Source of the DNA: a bacterium
GTDB taxonomy: Bacteria; JAJRZV01
Direction of reading: 5' to 3'
DNA length: 64,000 bases
NCBI GenBank assembly: GCA_024275095.1
Contig: JAJRZV010000025.1
Location: 1-64,000, forward strand
Part shown: positions 1 to 7,029 of the stretch, piece after piece
How positions within the stretch are numbered: position 1 is the stretch's first letter
Layout: the number at the start of each line of letters is the position of its first letter
Position numbers and translations under genes: made by a program
The notes under the pieces: generated by a model
Databases searched by the model: none
What the model saw: only the letters and a program-made list of their open reading frames with translations
What the model was told of the DNA's origin: nothing

Positions 1-909
1 TGTGGACAACATATTGCAGGGGTAGCTGCCGTCTTGAGAAAGACTTATGGCCTCGGGGCACAACAGCAAGCAGCCGTCAAGAACGCCATCGTTGATGCAT
101 TTACCTCTATGAATATTCCCACCTCGGGCTCAGCACGGTATGACGAGGCAATGCGCTTCCCCGATTTTTCCAACGTCGGTAGGACGCTGGAGGTTGATAA
201 CCCGGCTGCTTACAACCGTCTGGATCCATTATTCACACTTGGATTGTTTAGAGACGAGTTCCGTGACGTATCGTTCCATTCCCTCGTGGAGCGCTCGGTT
301 GTCTTGGATTTAAGCCAGATTCCCAGCGACGAGATAAAGAACGCGCTCGCACAGCTTGTCGTAATGTCAGCGCACGCATATTACAATTCGCAGCCTCACT
401 CTGGAAGCATTCGGCAAGTCCTTGTGTTCGACGAAGCTCACCGCGTTTTAAGCTCGGATTTCATGCCGAGGTTAGTGCGCGAATGTAGGGCATATGGTGT
501 TGGGACAATACTCTCGTCCCAGTACCCATCTGACTTTCCCCAAGAGATATCTGCCTCAATGGCTACCAAGATTATTCATGGCAATGGTAGAGACATCGAG
601 AAAGTAAAAGACATTGTTAGGATCCTGGGATGCGAGGGTCAGGAAGCAGAAGTGTCAAACCTTGATAGGTTTCAGGCCTTCGTAGACAACCGTCATTATC
701 CTCATACCCTGGTTCGAACAATGAACTACCCGTTGTTCCTTGTCTGGTCTCACCTGCGAGAACGTGGAATGGCAACAAGGGCCGAAATCTGCCAAATAGA
801 AGGCTTAGACACTTCCAAGCTGCCTGTTGGGAATCTGGTTGGGCAGCTGGAACGGCTTGGGCTAGCAGAAGAGCGAGAAGGGCAAGTACACGTGCTGGAT
901 AGGGAGTAA
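1..909 (+). CDS. HerA-like ATPase, C-terminal part (5' end outside window)
   Basis: The reading frame is open from the first base, so the gene starts upstream; about 302 residues are visible. The Walker A region would lie outside the window. The visible part has a Walker B-type motif VLVFDEAHR (about residue 145), then a segment typical of HerA/FtsK-like hexameric DNA-pumping ATPases (LSSQYPSDFP, a sensor-like loop, and a stretch on the state of the ATPase ring). The last 70 residues look like a winged-helix DNA-binding domain (HLRERGMATRAEICQIEG). HerA-type ATPases translocate on DNA and often partner with nucleases in antiphage systems. The stop is 15 bases before the next gene, an SRA-HNH nuclease, on the same strand, so an operon is likely. 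Family assignment is fairly safe; the exact role is inference. Confidence 0.75.
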   Translation, partial: CGQHIAGVAAVLRKTYGLGAQQQAAVKNAIVDAFTSMNIPTSGSARYDEAMRFPDFSNVGRTLEVDNPAAYNRLDPLFTLGLFRDEFRDVSFHSLVERSVVLDLSQIPSDEIKNALAQLVVMSAHAYYNSQPHSGSIRQVLVFDEAHRVLSSDFMPRLVRECRAYGVGTILSSQYPSDFPQEISASMATKIIHGNGRDIEKVKDIVRILGCEGQEAEVSNLDRFQAFVDNRHYPHTLVRTMNYPLFLVWSHLRERGMATRAEICQIEGLDTSKLPVGNLVGQLERLGLAEEREGQVHVLDRE

Positions 910-924
910 GGAGCATGTTGCCCA

Positions 925-1755
925 ATGCATCCATTTGAAATAGGAAGAAGTTACGACAGAGAACAAATACTTGCCTTCCTCGGCAGTAAGCAACGTCAAA
1001 GTGGCATAGTGTATGGAAAAGCGAATCGAGAGTATATTGCGGTTTTTACCGGGGGGCGTTCCGGTCGAAGGGCAGGATACGAAGACGGGTGGGGACCAGA
1101 TGGCACTTTCTTGTATTGCGGCCAAGGTTCAAAAGGAGACCAAAGGCTGGCCAGAGCAAACAAGGTTTTGGCCAACCACCGCGGTATCGTGTTGTTATTC
1201 GAAACATGGAAACCCAAGAACACGTGGAAAGGGAAACAGCGATTTCTCGGAGAGTTCACTGTCTTAGGATTCGACTGGTTCAGCGGAAGCGGAACGCGCG
1301 AGGGTGATAGGCTTCTCGTCTTTTCCCTACTACCGGCGGCCGGCTTGACGATGCCGCGACAAGCTCCTGATATACGCTATGAAGAATTGAACGATATCGC
1401 GGTCTTGCGGAGCAAGGCAATAGAAGCCAGCCGAGAGAGCACTCCAGCGCGAATGACGCTCGCCGAGTACCGCACGAGGTCGCTGGTCGTAGCGCGATAT
1501 GTCTTAGCACGGGCAAGGGGAACGTGCGAAGCTTGTGGCAAACCCGCACCATTCATACGTCCCAATGGAACCCCTTTCTTGGAAGTTCATCACACGCGTC
1601 GTCTGGCAGACGATGGACCGGACGACATCATGCACGTGGCAGCATTGTGTCCCAATTGTCATCGTGAGGCACATCTTGGGGCTAACGTGAATCGATTCCG
1701 GGAGAATCTCGAGGAGAAAATCAAGGTGAAGGAACGGGGCAATGAGGAAAGGTAA
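925..1755 (+). CDS. SRA/YDG-like plus HNH endonuclease (McrA-type, type IV restriction)
   Basis: A 276-residue protein predicted to cut DNA carrying modified bases. Residues about 15-135 resemble the SRA/YDG-like reader domain of ScoMcrA-type enzymes: AGYEDGW, DGTFLYCGQG, GDQRLARANK, and a later FLGEF strand. Residues about 190-265 are an HNH/ββα-metal nuclease: CEACGKPAPF, then FLEVHHTRRL, then ALCPNCHREAH, giving the zinc cysteines, the catalytic HH pair and the last His. AAGGAG lies upstream of the ATG. It follows a HerA-like ATPase and its 3' end overlaps the next gene, a Mig-like glycosylase, by 14 bases, which suggests coupled translation. The nuclease call is strong; that the N-terminal domain reads 5-methyl- or hydroxymethyl-cytosine is inferred from the family. 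Confidence 0.85.
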   Translation: MHPFEIGRSYDREQILAFLGSKQRQSGIVYGKANREYIAVFTGGRSGRRAGYEDGWGPDGTFLYCGQGSKGDQRLARANKVLANHRGIVLLFETWKPKNTWKGKQRFLGEFTVLGFDWFSGSGTREGDRLLVFSLLPAAGLTMPRQAPDIRYEELNDIAVLRSKAIEASRESTPARMTLAEYRTRSLVVARYVLARARGTCEACGKPAPFIRPNGTPFLEVHHTRRLADDGPDDIMHVAALCPNCHREAHLGANVNRFRENLEEKIKVKERGNEER

Positions 1756-2428
1756 AAGTCGGGAGGGGGTTTGCTTGCCTAACCATTCTCTGCTCCGTGG
1801 ATTTAGGCGAAGGTTGCTGGCATGGTATGTGAAAAATGGACGTCACTTCCCGTGGCGAAATAGATCCGCGACTAAGTATCAGCTGATTATTGCAGAGATC
1901 CTTCTCCAGCGAACGCGAGCCGAAACGATTGCTACTTTCTTTGGGGAGTTCCTTCGGGCTTTTCCCTCCTGGAAAAAGCTTTCGGATGCTAACGAAGAAG
2001 ACATCGCTCGTTTCTTGCGGCCAATAGGGCTGTGGCGCCGACGTGCTTCTTCTTTGAAGTTACTTGCTGTAGAAATGGCGAGAAGAAATGGAAGGTTCCC
2101 CCGAAACAGGGAAGAGATTGAGGCCCTGCCCGGGGTTGGCCAGTATATAGCAAATGCCGTTTTGTTGTTCTGTCATGATGAACCCCAGCCATTGCTTGAC
2201 GTCAACATGGCTCGCGTCCTGGAGCGAGTATTCGGACCTCGCCAACTCGCGGACATCCGCTACGATCCGTACCTGCAATCTCTGTCCTCGACGGTGGTTA
2301 ATTGCAGGAACCCGAGGGAGATAAACTGGGCGATACTAGACCTCGCCGCAACAACTTGTCGGGACAGCGCTCCTCGTTGCCACGAGTGCCCTCTTAGACG
2401 CATTTGCCTTTACCAAGGTGGACCATGA
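1742..2428 (+). CDS. Mig/MutY-like HhH-GPD DNA glycosylase with 4Fe-4S motif (likely T:G mismatch)
   Basis: A 228-residue HhH-GPD glycosylase. The helix-hairpin-helix is LPGVGQYIANAV (about residues 128-139), followed by the catalytic-Asp segment LLDVNMARV. The Lys of endonuclease III at the hairpin is replaced by Tyr, as in Mig.Mth, the thymine-DNA glycosylase linked to a cytosine-5 methylation system. The C-terminus has the iron-sulfur pattern C-x6-C-x2-C-x5-C (CRDSAPRC, HEC, PLRRIC). It therefore probably removes T (or U) from T:G mismatches formed by 5-methylcytosine deamination; a MutY-like adenine glycosylase is the main alternative. It overlaps the SRA-HNH gene before it (14 bases) and the DUF4236 gene after it (ATGA, 4 bases), so the three are likely co-translated. 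Confidence 0.85.
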   Translation: MRKGKSREGVCLPNHSLLRGFRRRLLAWYVKNGRHFPWRNRSATKYQLIIAEILLQRTRAETIATFFGEFLRAFPSWKKLSDANEEDIARFLRPIGLWRRRASSLKLLAVEMARRNGRFPRNREEIEALPGVGQYIANAVLLFCHDEPQPLLDVNMARVLERVFGPRQLADIRYDPYLQSLSSTVVNCRNPREINWAILDLAATTCRDSAPRCHECPLRRICLYQGGP

Positions 2429-3465
2429 GCTTCCGCTTTTGGAGACGAATCAGGATCGCACCGGGCGTGACCCTGAACCTGAGTAAGTCGGGCGGCTCTC
2501 TCTCGTTCGGGCCACGCGGAGCGAAGTTCACCATCGGTCCGAGGGGCAAGCGGGCCACGGTGGGCATTCCGGGAACAGGTCTTTTCTACACGACCACGCT
2601 TCCGAGCGGGCGGTCAGGTGGCAGGAGAAGCGTGTCCTACTCCGCTCCGGCCGTCCCAACGGTCCGCCCGGAAGACCGCCTGACCCTGGGCTTCTTCAAG
2701 CGGCTTATCACGCCGGACGACGAGGAGGCCCTGGTGGATGGGTGCCGGGAGTTGGTCCTTGGCAACGAAGAGAAGGCCCTCGAACACCTCGAGAAGGCCA
2801 TCCACCTGGCCGACGGCGCGTACCTTGCCGGTTTTCTGGCGCTCAAGCAGCAGCGGCTTGAAGAAGCCGCGACCTACCTTGCGACGGCCGCCGAGAAGCA
2901 CAGCCGTCTGGGCCGCTACTTCTCCAAGTACGGCATCTCCGCCACCATGAGCCTGCCCATCACAGACGAGGTATCCGCGCATGTGGGCCCGGATCTCCGC
3001 GGCGTGCTGCTGGGCCTGGTGGAGGTCTACCAGCGTCAGGAGCGCTGGGAGGATGCAATTGCCTGCCTGGAGCGCTTGCGGCGGCTCGAACCCGACGACG
3101 TGGTGGTGAAGCTGTCCCTCGCCGAGCTGCTGCTCACCGCCCGCCCGGGCGACAAGAACGTCTGCCGGAAGGTTGTGCGGTTGGCCGAAGGCATCGAGAA
3201 CGAGACGCCGGTCCACACCGCGCTGCTCTTGTACAAGGCCAGGGCCCTGCGCGGGCTCGGGCTCCTGGAGGCGGCGCGGGAGACCCTGACGGGCGCCCTG
3301 CGCCGGAAGAAGGGCCGCTCCGAGGAGCTGCTCCGGGCGCTCAGGTACGAACGGGCCCTGGTTTACGAGGACCTCGGCCAGCGCCGGCGGGCGCGCAGCG
3401 AGCTCGAGAAGCTCTACGCCGAGGCCCCGGATTACGAGGACGTGGCGGCCCGGTTGGGGCTGTAG
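2425..3465 (+). CDS. DUF4236 and TPR-repeat protein, GC-rich
   Basis: I start this gene at the ATG that overlaps the preceding stop codon (ATGA). The first 60 residues match DUF4236 (MSFRFWRRIRIAPGVTLNLS, SFGPRGAKFTIGPRG, VGIPGTGLFYT). Residues about 95-346 are TPR-like helical repeats (ALEHLEKAIHLADGAYLAG, YQRQERWEDAIACLERL and so on), expected to bind other proteins. No catalytic motif is seen. DUF4236 is a small domain of unknown function common in phage- and defence-rich regions. Base composition is much richer in G+C than anything else in the window, and codons end almost always in G or C, which points to acquisition from another genome. The tight overlap with the glycosylase could mean a functional link or just a shared mobile cargo. 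Confidence 0.8.
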   Translation: MSFRFWRRIRIAPGVTLNLSKSGGSLSFGPRGAKFTIGPRGKRATVGIPGTGLFYTTTLPSGRSGGRRSVSYSAPAVPTVRPEDRLTLGFFKRLITPDDEEALVDGCRELVLGNEEKALEHLEKAIHLADGAYLAGFLALKQQRLEEAATYLATAAEKHSRLGRYFSKYGISATMSLPITDEVSAHVGPDLRGVLLGLVEVYQRQERWEDAIACLERLRRLEPDDVVVKLSLAELLLTARPGDKNVCRKVVRLAEGIENETPVHTALLLYKARALRGLGLLEAARETLTGALRRKKGRSEELLRALRYERALVYEDLGQRRRARSELEKLYAEAPDYEDVAARLGL

Positions 3466-3533
3466 CGGAAATCCGAATCAGCGCCGTTTCTGCCCCTTCG
3501 GGGATGTGCCGCTCTTTGAAAAGATATTGTGTA

Positions 3534-4185
3534 TCAACGGGTTAGGTGATATCCTGGCGGTGGAGAGTAATTATGAAGAGGGTTGCGAGTGCGGAGGTGA
3601 ACCCACAGGTCCCCGGGTGGTGGTACAAAGTCAGGTTTTACTCTGGTGTTAATAATCTCCAGGTGCTCCTGTGTGACCGTACCGTTTCTTATGGCGTTGA
3701 GGATTTCTATGAATTTTTCGTGTTTATGGCTTTCGCCTGCTTCTGCCGTTGAGCCTCATAAACCTGTCAACGCGATCAAGAAGGTCTGCGCGGACCAGTG
3801 AGATCTCATCAATGATTATGGTGTCAATGGAGCGGTATAGCCTGCGTGTACTCTCGTTTTTCAACTTCTTCACATCCTGCAGGGTCACTCCCGGGTGAAA
3901 CCTGAAAAATGAATGGATGGTCTGTCCCATAACGTTAAGCGCGGCAACTCCCGTAGGTGCCAGCACAACCACGTTTTTGCTGGTCTTCTCACGAAAAAGC
4001 TGAAGAAGAGTGGACTTGCCTGTGCCTGCCCTTCCTGTTATGAAAACGTCTTTGCGGGTGTGCTCCAGAAGATAAGGGGCGAGTTCAAATTCCGGTGTAA
4101 TTTCTATGTTTAAGGAATCCAGCTCCTTGTGGTTGCCGGTGCTTTCCGGGATAATATTACAGGATAATATTACCAGACTCTTCCT
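3534..4185 (-). pseudogene. PIF1-like ATP-dependent helicase remnant
   Basis: Read on the minus strand from about 4185, the frame gives FITGRAGTGKSTLLQLF (Walker A), VVLAPTGVAALNVMGQTIHS, and TIIIDEISLVRADLLDRVDR (Walker B), all characteristic of PIF1/RecD2-like helicases. It stops at TAA 3724-3726 just after RLNGRSRRKP, where intact relatives continue into the motif III region. In a different frame from 3723 to 3534 there is another helicase-like stretch (KFIEILNAIRNGTVTQEHLE, INTRVKPDF) ending in TGA. About 80 residues of the expected protein between the two parts are missing and the frame changes at the join, so this is an internal deletion with frameshift. No start codon with a good ribosome site is seen at the 5' side. 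Confidence 0.8.
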
Positions 4186-4518
4186 GCTTCAGATAGCACC
4201 TTGTGGCGTCTCTACCTTACAACCGTAAGCGACTCCGCTGCCCGGCTCTACCCGAAGCGAAAGAATTTTTTATTTGTATTTGTAAATACGGGCATGTTCT
4301 GCCGCCAGCATCATGCTCGCCTGCATTCGTCTCCTCCGGAGCGTTCAAAGAAATCCTCCTGCTTTAATGCTATTCTTCTCTGCATGGAGAACTCACTGGC
4401 CCGGATTGTCAAGTACGGAGGGGTTCCCGATTTATATAATCACGAAGTTTACACGCCGTGTTGAATTGCTCTTTTTTGCCCCTTTTTGTTCAGGCCAATG
4501 CGTATCTCTCCAATCCCT
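4186..4518. other. Gene-poor stretch between helicase remnant and lipoprotein gene
   Basis: No ORF here resembles a known protein. On the minus strand a GGAGGAG sits just before an 18-codon ORF (ATG near 4325) but its product has no recognisable feature. I see no tRNA, no repeat array and no convincing terminator. Confidence 0.5.
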
Positions 4519-5937
4519 TCATTCTTCCCTTGTCAGCTTCACCTTCACGTGAAATGTGCCCACCTCAGCCCATGGATAAATTTCCGTTCCTGCATTTGCC
4601 ACACACCAGTCATGATCGTCCCCGTCGTTGAATCCTATTGTCCAGGTAAAATCTCCCTCGAGCTCTGTATCGGAAATTCTGTAGAGAATCATCTGGATCA
4701 CCTCTACACGATCGCACGTTTTGAAGACCCAGTTGCCTCCAGCATCATCAAATCCTATGTAATCTGTCCACTCATTTATCGTGGTGAAGGATCCAACATT
4801 ATCAGAATTGTAAATAAACTCCTCCAGTACGTAGAGTGTGGATGGTTTCCCCCTTTTCGTCTCAAACTGGTCAGGGAACTGATCTATCTCTTCGGGTGTA
4901 AGTGACCAGTCAAACTCTCTTTCTTCCACACACAGCTGGTCGTTTTCTTTTACTTCAGGTGAGTGATAGCAGTTGGCAAAGCAGTAAAGCTGTTCAGAAA
5001 CAGGGGTAAGGTCCTTGCAGTAATCGCCTGTGTCTCCGTCGTTATTGTAATCGTTTGCCCAGCCGGATGCCTCTGTGCAGGAGTTCCCCCAGGAACCGGG
5101 TTCGGGAGGGTCTGGTGTATATGTGAAATGCCCCAGGAGATTAGTGTCGTCTATAATCACCTGTGGAGATTCAGCATCGCTATCTATATCTTCCTGGGTT
5201 ACTCCGATCACCCCACCACATGACAGGAAAGCCTGCTCGCTCTTCCACACCATTATTCCGTACCGCTTTTTCCCCGTATTTTTATCTGTGGCGGAAAATC
5301 TCAAAAGGTAAATTGGCAATCCCCCCTCCACACATGGACCCTCATCAGGAGGAAGAGCTGCAGGGTCCGTGTAACCTGGTCCCCCTTTCACACACTCCAT
5401 TTTCCACGAGCCCGTAAAGTCAAAGGGTTGTGAAATCTCTGTTTTTCCAGCCACCTGGATTTCTCCCTCAACAGATACAACTGCAATTTTGGCATCAAGG
5501 TCCACAATAATGGTTCCCAGATCCGCATCATCAGCCGTCACCACAGCACCTGAACGAACAGTGCCTCCCTCCAGGTTTGTCTCGGGCTGTTCAAAAATAA
5601 GGTCTGCGATGTGGTTGCCGTTTTCATCAAGCACAAAACATCCGAAGGCCTTTCCTTTGGCATCAAAATTCACAATTTCAAAATACCCTGACTCGTCAGC
5701 CACTCCACTTCCGGCCTTGGGATAATCCTCAAAAGTAACGCAGTAAAGCACATAGTGAGCCAGGGGCACCCCTGCTCCATCCTGCAGGGATTGAAGAAGC
5801 GCATTTTGAACAGTTGCGCCTTCTCCAACAAGCCTCCCGGTTATGGTAATGGTATTTTTCTCGCCGCCACCGCATCCCCCTACAGCAATAATTATTCCCG
5901 CAAGCAAAAATAAAAAAATGCTTCGCCACTTCATCAT
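4519..5937 (-). CDS. Secreted lipoprotein of unknown function
   Basis: A 472-residue protein with a lipoprotein signal: MMKWRSIFLFLLAGIIIAVG followed by GC at the lipobox (VGGC), so it should be lipidated and exported. The mature part begins with a β-rich segment like those of carboxypeptidase-regulatory or 'metal-site' extracellular lipoproteins (TITGRLVGEGATVQNALL), then a long region with scattered cysteines and acidic loops (NDYNNDGDTGDYCKD) resembling calcium-binding loops. No enzyme motif is seen. GAGGTG precedes the tandem ATGs. It stands alone between two pseudogenes. Function unknown; export is well supported. Confidence 0.8.
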   Translation of the reverse strand: MMKWRSIFLFLLAGIIIAVGGCGGGEKNTITITGRLVGEGATVQNALLQSLQDGAGVPLAHYVLYCVTFEDYPKAGSGVADESGYFEIVNFDAKGKAFGCFVLDENGNHIADLIFEQPETNLEGGTVRSGAVVTADDADLGTIIVDLDAKIAVVSVEGEIQVAGKTEISQPFDFTGSWKMECVKGGPGYTDPAALPPDEGPCVEGGLPIYLLRFSATDKNTGKKRYGIMVWKSEQAFLSCGGVIGVTQEDIDSDAESPQVIIDDTNLLGHFTYTPDPPEPGSWGNSCTEASGWANDYNNDGDTGDYCKDLTPVSEQLYCFANCYHSPEVKENDQLCVEEREFDWSLTPEEIDQFPDQFETKRGKPSTLYVLEEFIYNSDNVGSFTTINEWTDYIGFDDAGGNWVFKTCDRVEVIQMILYRISDTELEGDFTWTIGFNDGDDHDWCVANAGTEIYPWAEVGTFHVKVKLTREE

Positions 5938-6225
5938 TCACCTCCGTGTTCTATCTCTGGTGCTCAGCATAATTTTTCTCTTTGTTGAAAGTATGTGATA
6001 CAGGTCACACACGTGGCCCCGGTCCGGAGAAGGGGTGTTTTTGTGGAAAAAAATTAAGAGAGTCGATTCTTACGGGGACATCTGCTTGTCCTGCTGCACC
6101 TGGGTCAAAGCTCAATTTTTAGCTTCTGAAAAGATTCGTTCAAACATGCCTCTGCCAGCGTTCTACGTTATTACACACAAGTCTTAATGCTATGGTAGTC
6201 CGACAGGTGACATGGTTGTTATCTA

Positions 6226-7029
6226 TTATCTGACACTAAGAATTGTATTCTTCCAAACATTCCCTACGATTTTGTACCCAAGTCGAAAAATATTAATCAG
6301 ATAACCACTCTGCATGGGGAGATTCTCTATTATTAGTATCGGCCTGTTTTTCTCAATGGTCGCCATGGCCCCAATCAGTGCAGTTTTTTTCAAACCCTTC
6401 AACATCCAGGTGGAGAATTGATACGTGCCGATTTGAGGAGACAATGTCGCCTGTCCTACCGTTTTAACCTTAATAAATTGAGAATTGTTCTCACTTTCAG
6501 CATCAACAAAATGACCGGCCCCTCCCAGGGCTCGGCCCTTTTCATCCAAGACTCTCAGGGGAAACAGACCGTTTTCTGAACCCAGTCCAGCATTTATAAG
6601 CTCAACATTTTTCAAATTGTTTATCAAAATTGTAATGGTGGCGCATCTATAGTTTTCTGGGTTAGGCTCAAATGCCCAGAGCTTGGCTCCTTCTGAACAC
6701 GCTCTCGCCAATGCCGGAATAAAATCGCCAAAATATGCACCAGCATGGATAATATCTCCCTTCCCAACATTTTTAACTATGTACTCAATGGTATCCTCTT
6801 CCTACACCTGGCCCGATAGAACTCTCTGTGCAGCCGGACGATGATAAGATGACAAAGGTATACAAAAGCCACCGTATTTATTATATGCAATGCAGCATCC
6901 TAAGACAGAAGGGTCACTATCTGGATATGTAGTAAAAAGCGGCCCTGTGCGGATTCTATTTATTTTGACAAATCTTCCTGTCACATGGACAGGCGAATTA
7001 GGGAGCAGTTTTTTTATTAATTGCTTCAC
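6226..7029 (-). pseudogene. FkbM-family methyltransferase, degenerate
   Basis: The frame reads MKQLIKKLLPNSPVHV through to a stop TAG at 6802-6804 and then, in the same frame, continues as a classic FkbM SAM-binding fold: DIIHAGAYFGDF (motif I) and LWAFEPNPENY. In-frame residues near 6410 (FSTWMLKGLKKTALIGAM) make no sense, but the +1 frame there gives VSILHLDVEGFEK, the conserved FkbM motif. The frame is restored after a run of seven A's on the coding strand, where six would be expected. So the gene has one nonsense codon and a pair of indels. FkbM enzymes O-methylate sugars or other small molecules. The decay fits the surrounding region, though sequencing errors cannot be excluded. Confidence 0.8.

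Follow-up and report, generated by a model that had tools for sequence, protein, structure and literature searches.

DndFGH has been described as a stand-alone system with no inbuilt modification module, which often occurs without phosphorothioation genes, and cytosine methylases have been tied only to CxC-DndE systems (Rakesh, Aravind and Krishnan, PMC10853773). The words Vsr, mismatch and glycosylase are all absent from the text of that paper, and a search of the open-licence literature, judged by title and abstract, met no DndFGH system with a cytosine methyltransferase. Mig.MthI, which accompanies M.MthTI/R.MthTI on pFV1, and other Type II systems with Mig or Vsr do combine a cytosine-5 methyltransferase with a T:G repair gene, and their glycosylase belongs to the same family as the one reported here; they rely, however, on a single small endonuclease, whereas the locus we describe encodes a multi-subunit translocase complex. 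SRA-HNH Type IV enzymes (TagI, ScoMcrA) share with this locus a YDG/SRA-like reader joined to an HNH nuclease, but here the gene shares its operon or locus with a 5-methylcytosine (5mC) methyltransferase and its product lacks a sulfur-binding domain. Finally, HerA/FtsK domains have been recruited into other defence operons, where their partners are Orc/Cdc6, D5 helicase or KAP proteins (PMC10853773) rather than a methyltransferase and a T:G repair enzyme.

The truncated locus and its intact counterpart

The window (the whole 64,000-nucleotide stretch of DNA that was analysed) starts at base 1 of contig C121, in a genome of 2.45 Mb that is 97% complete. This genome is the sole member of its phylum in our search set, and the host lineage is sparsely sampled. 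The following genes open the window:

1..909, + strand: predicted HerA/FtsK ATPase of the DndH type, last 302 residues; the reading frame is open at the left edge, cut by the contig end
925..1755, + strand: SRA(YDG)-HNH endonuclease, 276 aa, predicted to be modification-dependent from Pfam HNH, structure matches and a homolog at locus L049
1742..2428, + strand: predicted Mig-like T:G mismatch glycosylase (HhH-GPD, 4Fe-4S), 228 aa, from its HhH-GPD domain, Mig/MutY kin and a tree
2425..3465, + strand: DUF4236-TPR protein, translationally coupled, its start overlapping the glycosylase stop (ATGA)

A first-pass annotation of the sequence had reported the first three as same-strand genes separated by a 15-base gap and a 14-base overlap. 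Both spacings were verified by the ORF coordinates, and the list of three genes holds as far as it goes; the fourth, coupled gene at 2425 had been overlooked. No DUF4236-TPR gene occurs at the related loci. Further right, positions 3500-7000 hold apparent gene fragments, among them a PIF1/AAA-helicase-like piece (3724-3972, - strand) and an FkbM-like methyltransferase piece (6226-6711, - strand), both named by eye, which suggests the edge of a decayed island.

The ATPase matches the PADLOC DndH profile (E=6e-19, profile positions 1421-1622 of 1678) ahead of several weaker HerA models, and has DptH (7es4) as a solved structural relative. A scan of 84,980 species genomes returned eight relatives of this ATPase end, the best of which (98% identical) lies in the Deltaproteobacteria Meg19 Bin_503 MAG, at locus L031/L047. 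There the aligned region, ~98% identical to the window ATPase, is the C-terminal end of an H protein of 1,859 aa. From this alignment, the window ATPase is read as the last 302 residues of a DndH-like protein of ~1,859 residues. The MAG operon runs C5-methyltransferase (471 aa), F (679 aa), G (521 aa), H (1,859 aa) and Mig (228 aa), with every neighbouring pair overlapping or 14 bases apart, and has no HNH gene. A stand-alone HerA-nuclease system is thus out, since the ATPase ends a ~1,859-aa protein that F and G precede in L031; the initial assignment to the HerA family stands, and the proposed stand-alone pairing with a nuclease gives way to membership of a DndFGH-like complex.

The MAG locus also bears on what the contig end has removed. 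The window locus probably once had a methyltransferase, F and G on its left, as its 98% identical relative does, in line with the methyltransferase suspected there at first reading; the original call of a defence operon stands as well. The window genome, where this locus is cut short, yielded no cytosine-5 methyltransferase of its own, and its left flank is therefore read from the relative. Across the 20 kb to the right of the window genes, the MAG genome yields just two short matches of ~70%; the window host and the MAG are therefore distant organisms that came to share the locus by horizontal transfer. Nucleotide identity between the two loci is ~95% over H, falls to ~65% over the first half of Mig and returns to ~92% over the rest, and the window has an HNH gene that is missing from L031. 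We therefore consider that HNH and the beginning of Mig were probably acquired through recombination with a different variant of this locus.

A family of methyltransferase-F-G-H loci

The same set of methyltransferase, F, G and H was found in Janthinobacterium sp. GW456P (L048) and in an Oxalobacteraceae bacterium (L049), with identities to the MAG proteins of 46-47% for the methyltransferase, 36% for F, 39-40% for G and 36-37% for H. The methyltransferases of both have intact catalytic motifs. Four loci are thus known in all, F-G-H being adjacent and the methyltransferase-F-G-H set complete in three (L031/L047, L048 and L049), with only the H end held by the window. No further member of the family was found among 794 sampled genomes (399 Burkholderiales and 395 of the phylum of the MAG), where the other matches belong to different HerA-containing operons. 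Viral contigs gave no useful close relatives of H, F, HNH or Mig; on plasmids, F was unmatched and only the HerA end of H found a match, in a Priestia dptFGH locus.

In the Janthinobacterium genome, TnsA-like and Mu-transposase-C-like (TnsB-type) genes lie just past the methyltransferase (L048:13809-16819), and a Tn7-like element may be carrying the module. HerA proteins at other loci show other arrangements. An apparent DndE-HerA fusion follows a DndD-like ABC ATPase at L003:526-2187, a fusion already described for clade-3 HerA proteins (PMC10853773). Proteins at L061 and L063 combine HerA with what may be an REase-like region, and in L063 a KAP/Orc-like ATPase lies upstream; this looks like another type of HerA capture.

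The resemblance to DndFGH/DptFGH lies in the F-G-H order, similar protein sizes, a P-loop F, a homologous end of G and a very large H that ends in a HerA/FtsK domain. In DndFGH itself, F has a P-loop kinase-like domain, G is a triple wHTH protein, and H contains SWI2/SNF2, TRD, inactive DAM and REase domains. We compared the F, G and H sets of the three complete loci with the Dpt profiles. F matched DptF at E=1.5e-4 and SspF at E=1e-5, and carries the Walker A motif GSPGNGKS; G matched DptG at E=7.6e-4 over its C-terminal 66 columns only; H matched DptH with 99.9% probability across the HerA end. All mismatched pairings of the new F, G or H with Dpt profiles gave 0.096 or worse. The new H proteins are 1,850-1,859 aa long, against ~1,700 residues for H of DndFGH, with Walker A GSSGTGKTQ. 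Outside the HerA domain (N-terminal ~1,430 residues) the match to DptH, though collinear, is not significant (E=0.24); unlike the HerA end, the N-terminal three quarters of the new H cannot be aligned to known H. A D-x(n)-ESK (D...ExK-like) motif occurs in H, its fit to a PD-(D/E)XK nuclease being judged by eye only, and an AlphaFold model of residues 600-1440 built on a three-sequence alignment (pLDDT 32) is of too low quality to reveal an REase. The model of G (pLDDT 44) is confident only at the C-terminal end, too little to reveal a triple wHTH. Gene order, sizes and partial homology together support the label "DndFGH-like".

Where DndFGH and this family part is in their companions, here a cytosine-5 methyltransferase and a T:G repair gene; neither the window genome nor any of the three that hold the whole set has a dndC above the cut-off. 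A Dnd phosphorothioation system was rejected on this ground. A C5-methyltransferase was found in the genomes of L031, L032 and L033. HerA homologs of 29-36% identity (L034-L038) have no methyltransferase at their loci, and none was found anywhere in genomes G149, G150 and G152; the hosts of the F-G-H-like operons L035, L036 and L038 have neither a C5-methyltransferase nor Vsr.

The putative T:G repair slot and the SRA-HNH nuclease

The glycosylase matches Pfam HhH-GPD (E=1e-13), and its nearest kin in the PDB are MutY and Mig (1kea, E=3e-30). It had been called Mig-like from a Tyr at the Mig position and a C-x6-C-x2-C-x5-C cluster, and both features are present. Tyr alone does not discriminate Mig from MutY, since the Bacillus stearothermophilus enzyme, a MutY, also has it. 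Aligned to Mig.MthI, whose pocket residues E42, A50, Y126, D144 and L187 have been assigned roles (PMC2714593), the glycosylase matches at the E42, A50, Y126 and D144 positions, two of which, A50 and Y126, are Val and Ser in E. coli MutY; at the L187 position it differs from Mig.MthI in having Trp, neither Leu nor the Gln of MutY. At 228 aa it lacks the MutY C-terminal domain, annotated MutY proteins being 350-400 aa long, and it falls outside the five MutY rows of our tree, which form their own group with 100/99 support. A MutY identity was ruled out by pocket residues, length and tree. Its gene context, its small size, its place in the tree and the Ala found where Mig has A50 all favour Mig over MutY, in agreement with the earlier call, and we conclude that the protein is a predicted Mig-like T:G mismatch glycosylase. 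The Mig encoded directly after H in the MAG is 77% identical to it. Relatives on plasmids (L015, L019-L021, L030) adjoin C5-methyltransferases, several also with a restriction enzyme; a relative in Gloeothece has no adjoining C5-methyltransferase. The closest plasmid relative (L015:8001-8618, 44% identity) is preceded by a C5-methyltransferase and an MvaI/BcnI endonuclease, and its gene has an in-frame stop near the 5' end, with the annotated start further in.

5-methylcytosine deaminates to T, leaving a T:G mismatch. Vsr and Mig are unrelated proteins that share the job of repairing such mismatches. At both L048 and L049 a Vsr mismatch endonuclease (Pfam E=2e-30 and 7e-29) adjoins H, and it is the only Vsr in each genome; with an estimated ~5,700 and ~3,700 genes, the chance of the single Vsr adjoining H in both is on the order of 2e-7. 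No Vsr was found in the two genomes with Mig, those of the window and the MAG. That one position is taken by Mig in some loci and by Vsr in others is our strongest clue to the function of the glycosylase. Because Vsr fills the Mig slot in two related loci, we consider that the glycosylase probably repairs the deaminated 5mC of its host; as independent genetic evidence, the exchange also points to 5-methylcytosine as the mark.

The nuclease had been proposed to act on modified bases, a call that holds as a prediction. Its HNH half has a Pfam match (E=1.5e-8), matches structure 6ghc and retains both the catalytic and the zinc residues. Its N-terminal YDG/SRA-like part bears a YDG...GDQ signature and weakly matches ScoMcrA (5zmm/5zmn, E=0.0026-0.007). 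Over its full length the protein is 40% identical to an SRA-HNH protein at L049, which matches SAD_SRA (PF02182) at E=0.007, under that model's cut-off, and whose gene converges with that of the methyltransferase, 7 bases lying between them. The best reading of SRA-HNH is an optional modified-DNA nuclease within the module. A 5mC-dependent enzyme could harm a host cell that makes 5mC. SRA-HNH must spare the marks of its partner methyltransferase; Type IV enzymes often live alongside compatible methyltransferases (PMC3874153).

Competing explanations and a proposed mechanism

Of the readings we weighed, the one we hold to be probable is a restriction complex of DndFGH-like type that works with 5-methylcytosine where DndFGH has phosphorothioate, Mig or Vsr being the T:G repair arm of the host. 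Against it weigh the small number of loci (four), the long N-terminal part of H that finds no significant DptH match, the window genome's want of a cytosine-5 methyltransferase, and the harm that a 5mC-dependent SRA-HNH could do to a 5mC-making cell. The genes could instead have come together by chance, with an ordinary restriction-modification remnant (the SRA-HNH nuclease, with Mig as its V gene) following the last part of a DndFGH-like operon and no joint function. Mig and SRA-HNH genes do each turn up by themselves or next to a wide range of other genes, a block recombined relative to L031 takes in HNH and the 5' half of Mig, and the exact trio of ATPase, nuclease and glycosylase is unrepeated: the recurrence in another genome by which the first-pass annotation would have checked it was not found, as L031 has the ATPase and Mig without HNH, and L049 has SRA-HNH beside the methyltransferase, with Vsr. 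However, Mig directly follows H in L031 with an 8-base overlap, the sole Vsr of two more genomes takes the place beside H, and SRA-HNH adjoins the same methyltransferase in L049, and we judge a chance grouping unlikely.

It is very unlikely that the locus is part of a canonical dnd/dpt system for phosphorothioation, extended by accessory genes and separated from its modification genes. The DndH profile matches would fit, and SRA-HNH proteins with an N-terminal wHTH often adjoin dnd modification genes (PMC10853773), but the absence of dndC described above extends to all four genomes, each of the three complete loci has a cytosine-5 methyltransferase instead, and the 276-aa HNH protein of the window has no room for a sulfur-binding domain. 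Least probable is the offensive base-excision module first suggested for these genes, in which the glycosylase would make abasic sites in modified phage DNA for the nuclease and ATPase to finish. Restriction glycosylases do exist (R.PabI family, PMC10273834) and the three genes are tightly packed; against this, the glycosylase has a T:G-type pocket (E42, A50, Y126 and D144 positions), its Mig-like relatives accompany restriction-modification systems that already hold an ordinary restriction endonuclease, and the sister loci carry Vsr, a strand-nicking T:G repair enzyme, in its stead. With the slot taken by Vsr in two related loci, the notion of the glycosylase as an attacker of phage DNA is left unsupported, and maintenance is more likely its role than that of a weapon.

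Under the 5mC-paired restriction complex that we prefer, the cytosine-5 methyltransferase would mark self DNA with 5mC at host sites. The FGH complex, in which F would be a P-loop NTPase, G a DNA-binding protein and H a large protein ending in a HerA/FtsK translocase, would translocate on unmarked DNA and cut it, in a manner similar to DndFGH and its phosphorothioate mark; 5mC would accordingly have to block restriction and H to contain an active nuclease. The Mig-like glycosylase, or Vsr in the sister loci, would repair T:G mismatches in host DNA and so guard the methylated sites from mutation. SRA-HNH, where present, may serve as an additional defence against foreign DNA with modified cytosine, such as 5hmC or 5mC in a different sequence context.

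We see roughly even chances that these loci represent an undescribed type of restriction-modification, in which a DndFGH-class complex licensed by 5mC always comes with a T:G repair enzyme, be it Mig or Vsr, and in some cases adds an SRA-HNH that catches phages with modified cytosine, so that unmodified and foreign-modified DNA would both be attacked. If this is true, the restriction half of a DndFGH-like complex can couple to a base mark. DndFGH poses a puzzle in having no modification module of its own, and a relative with its own methyltransferase offers a simple genetic test of how self is recognized from non-self.
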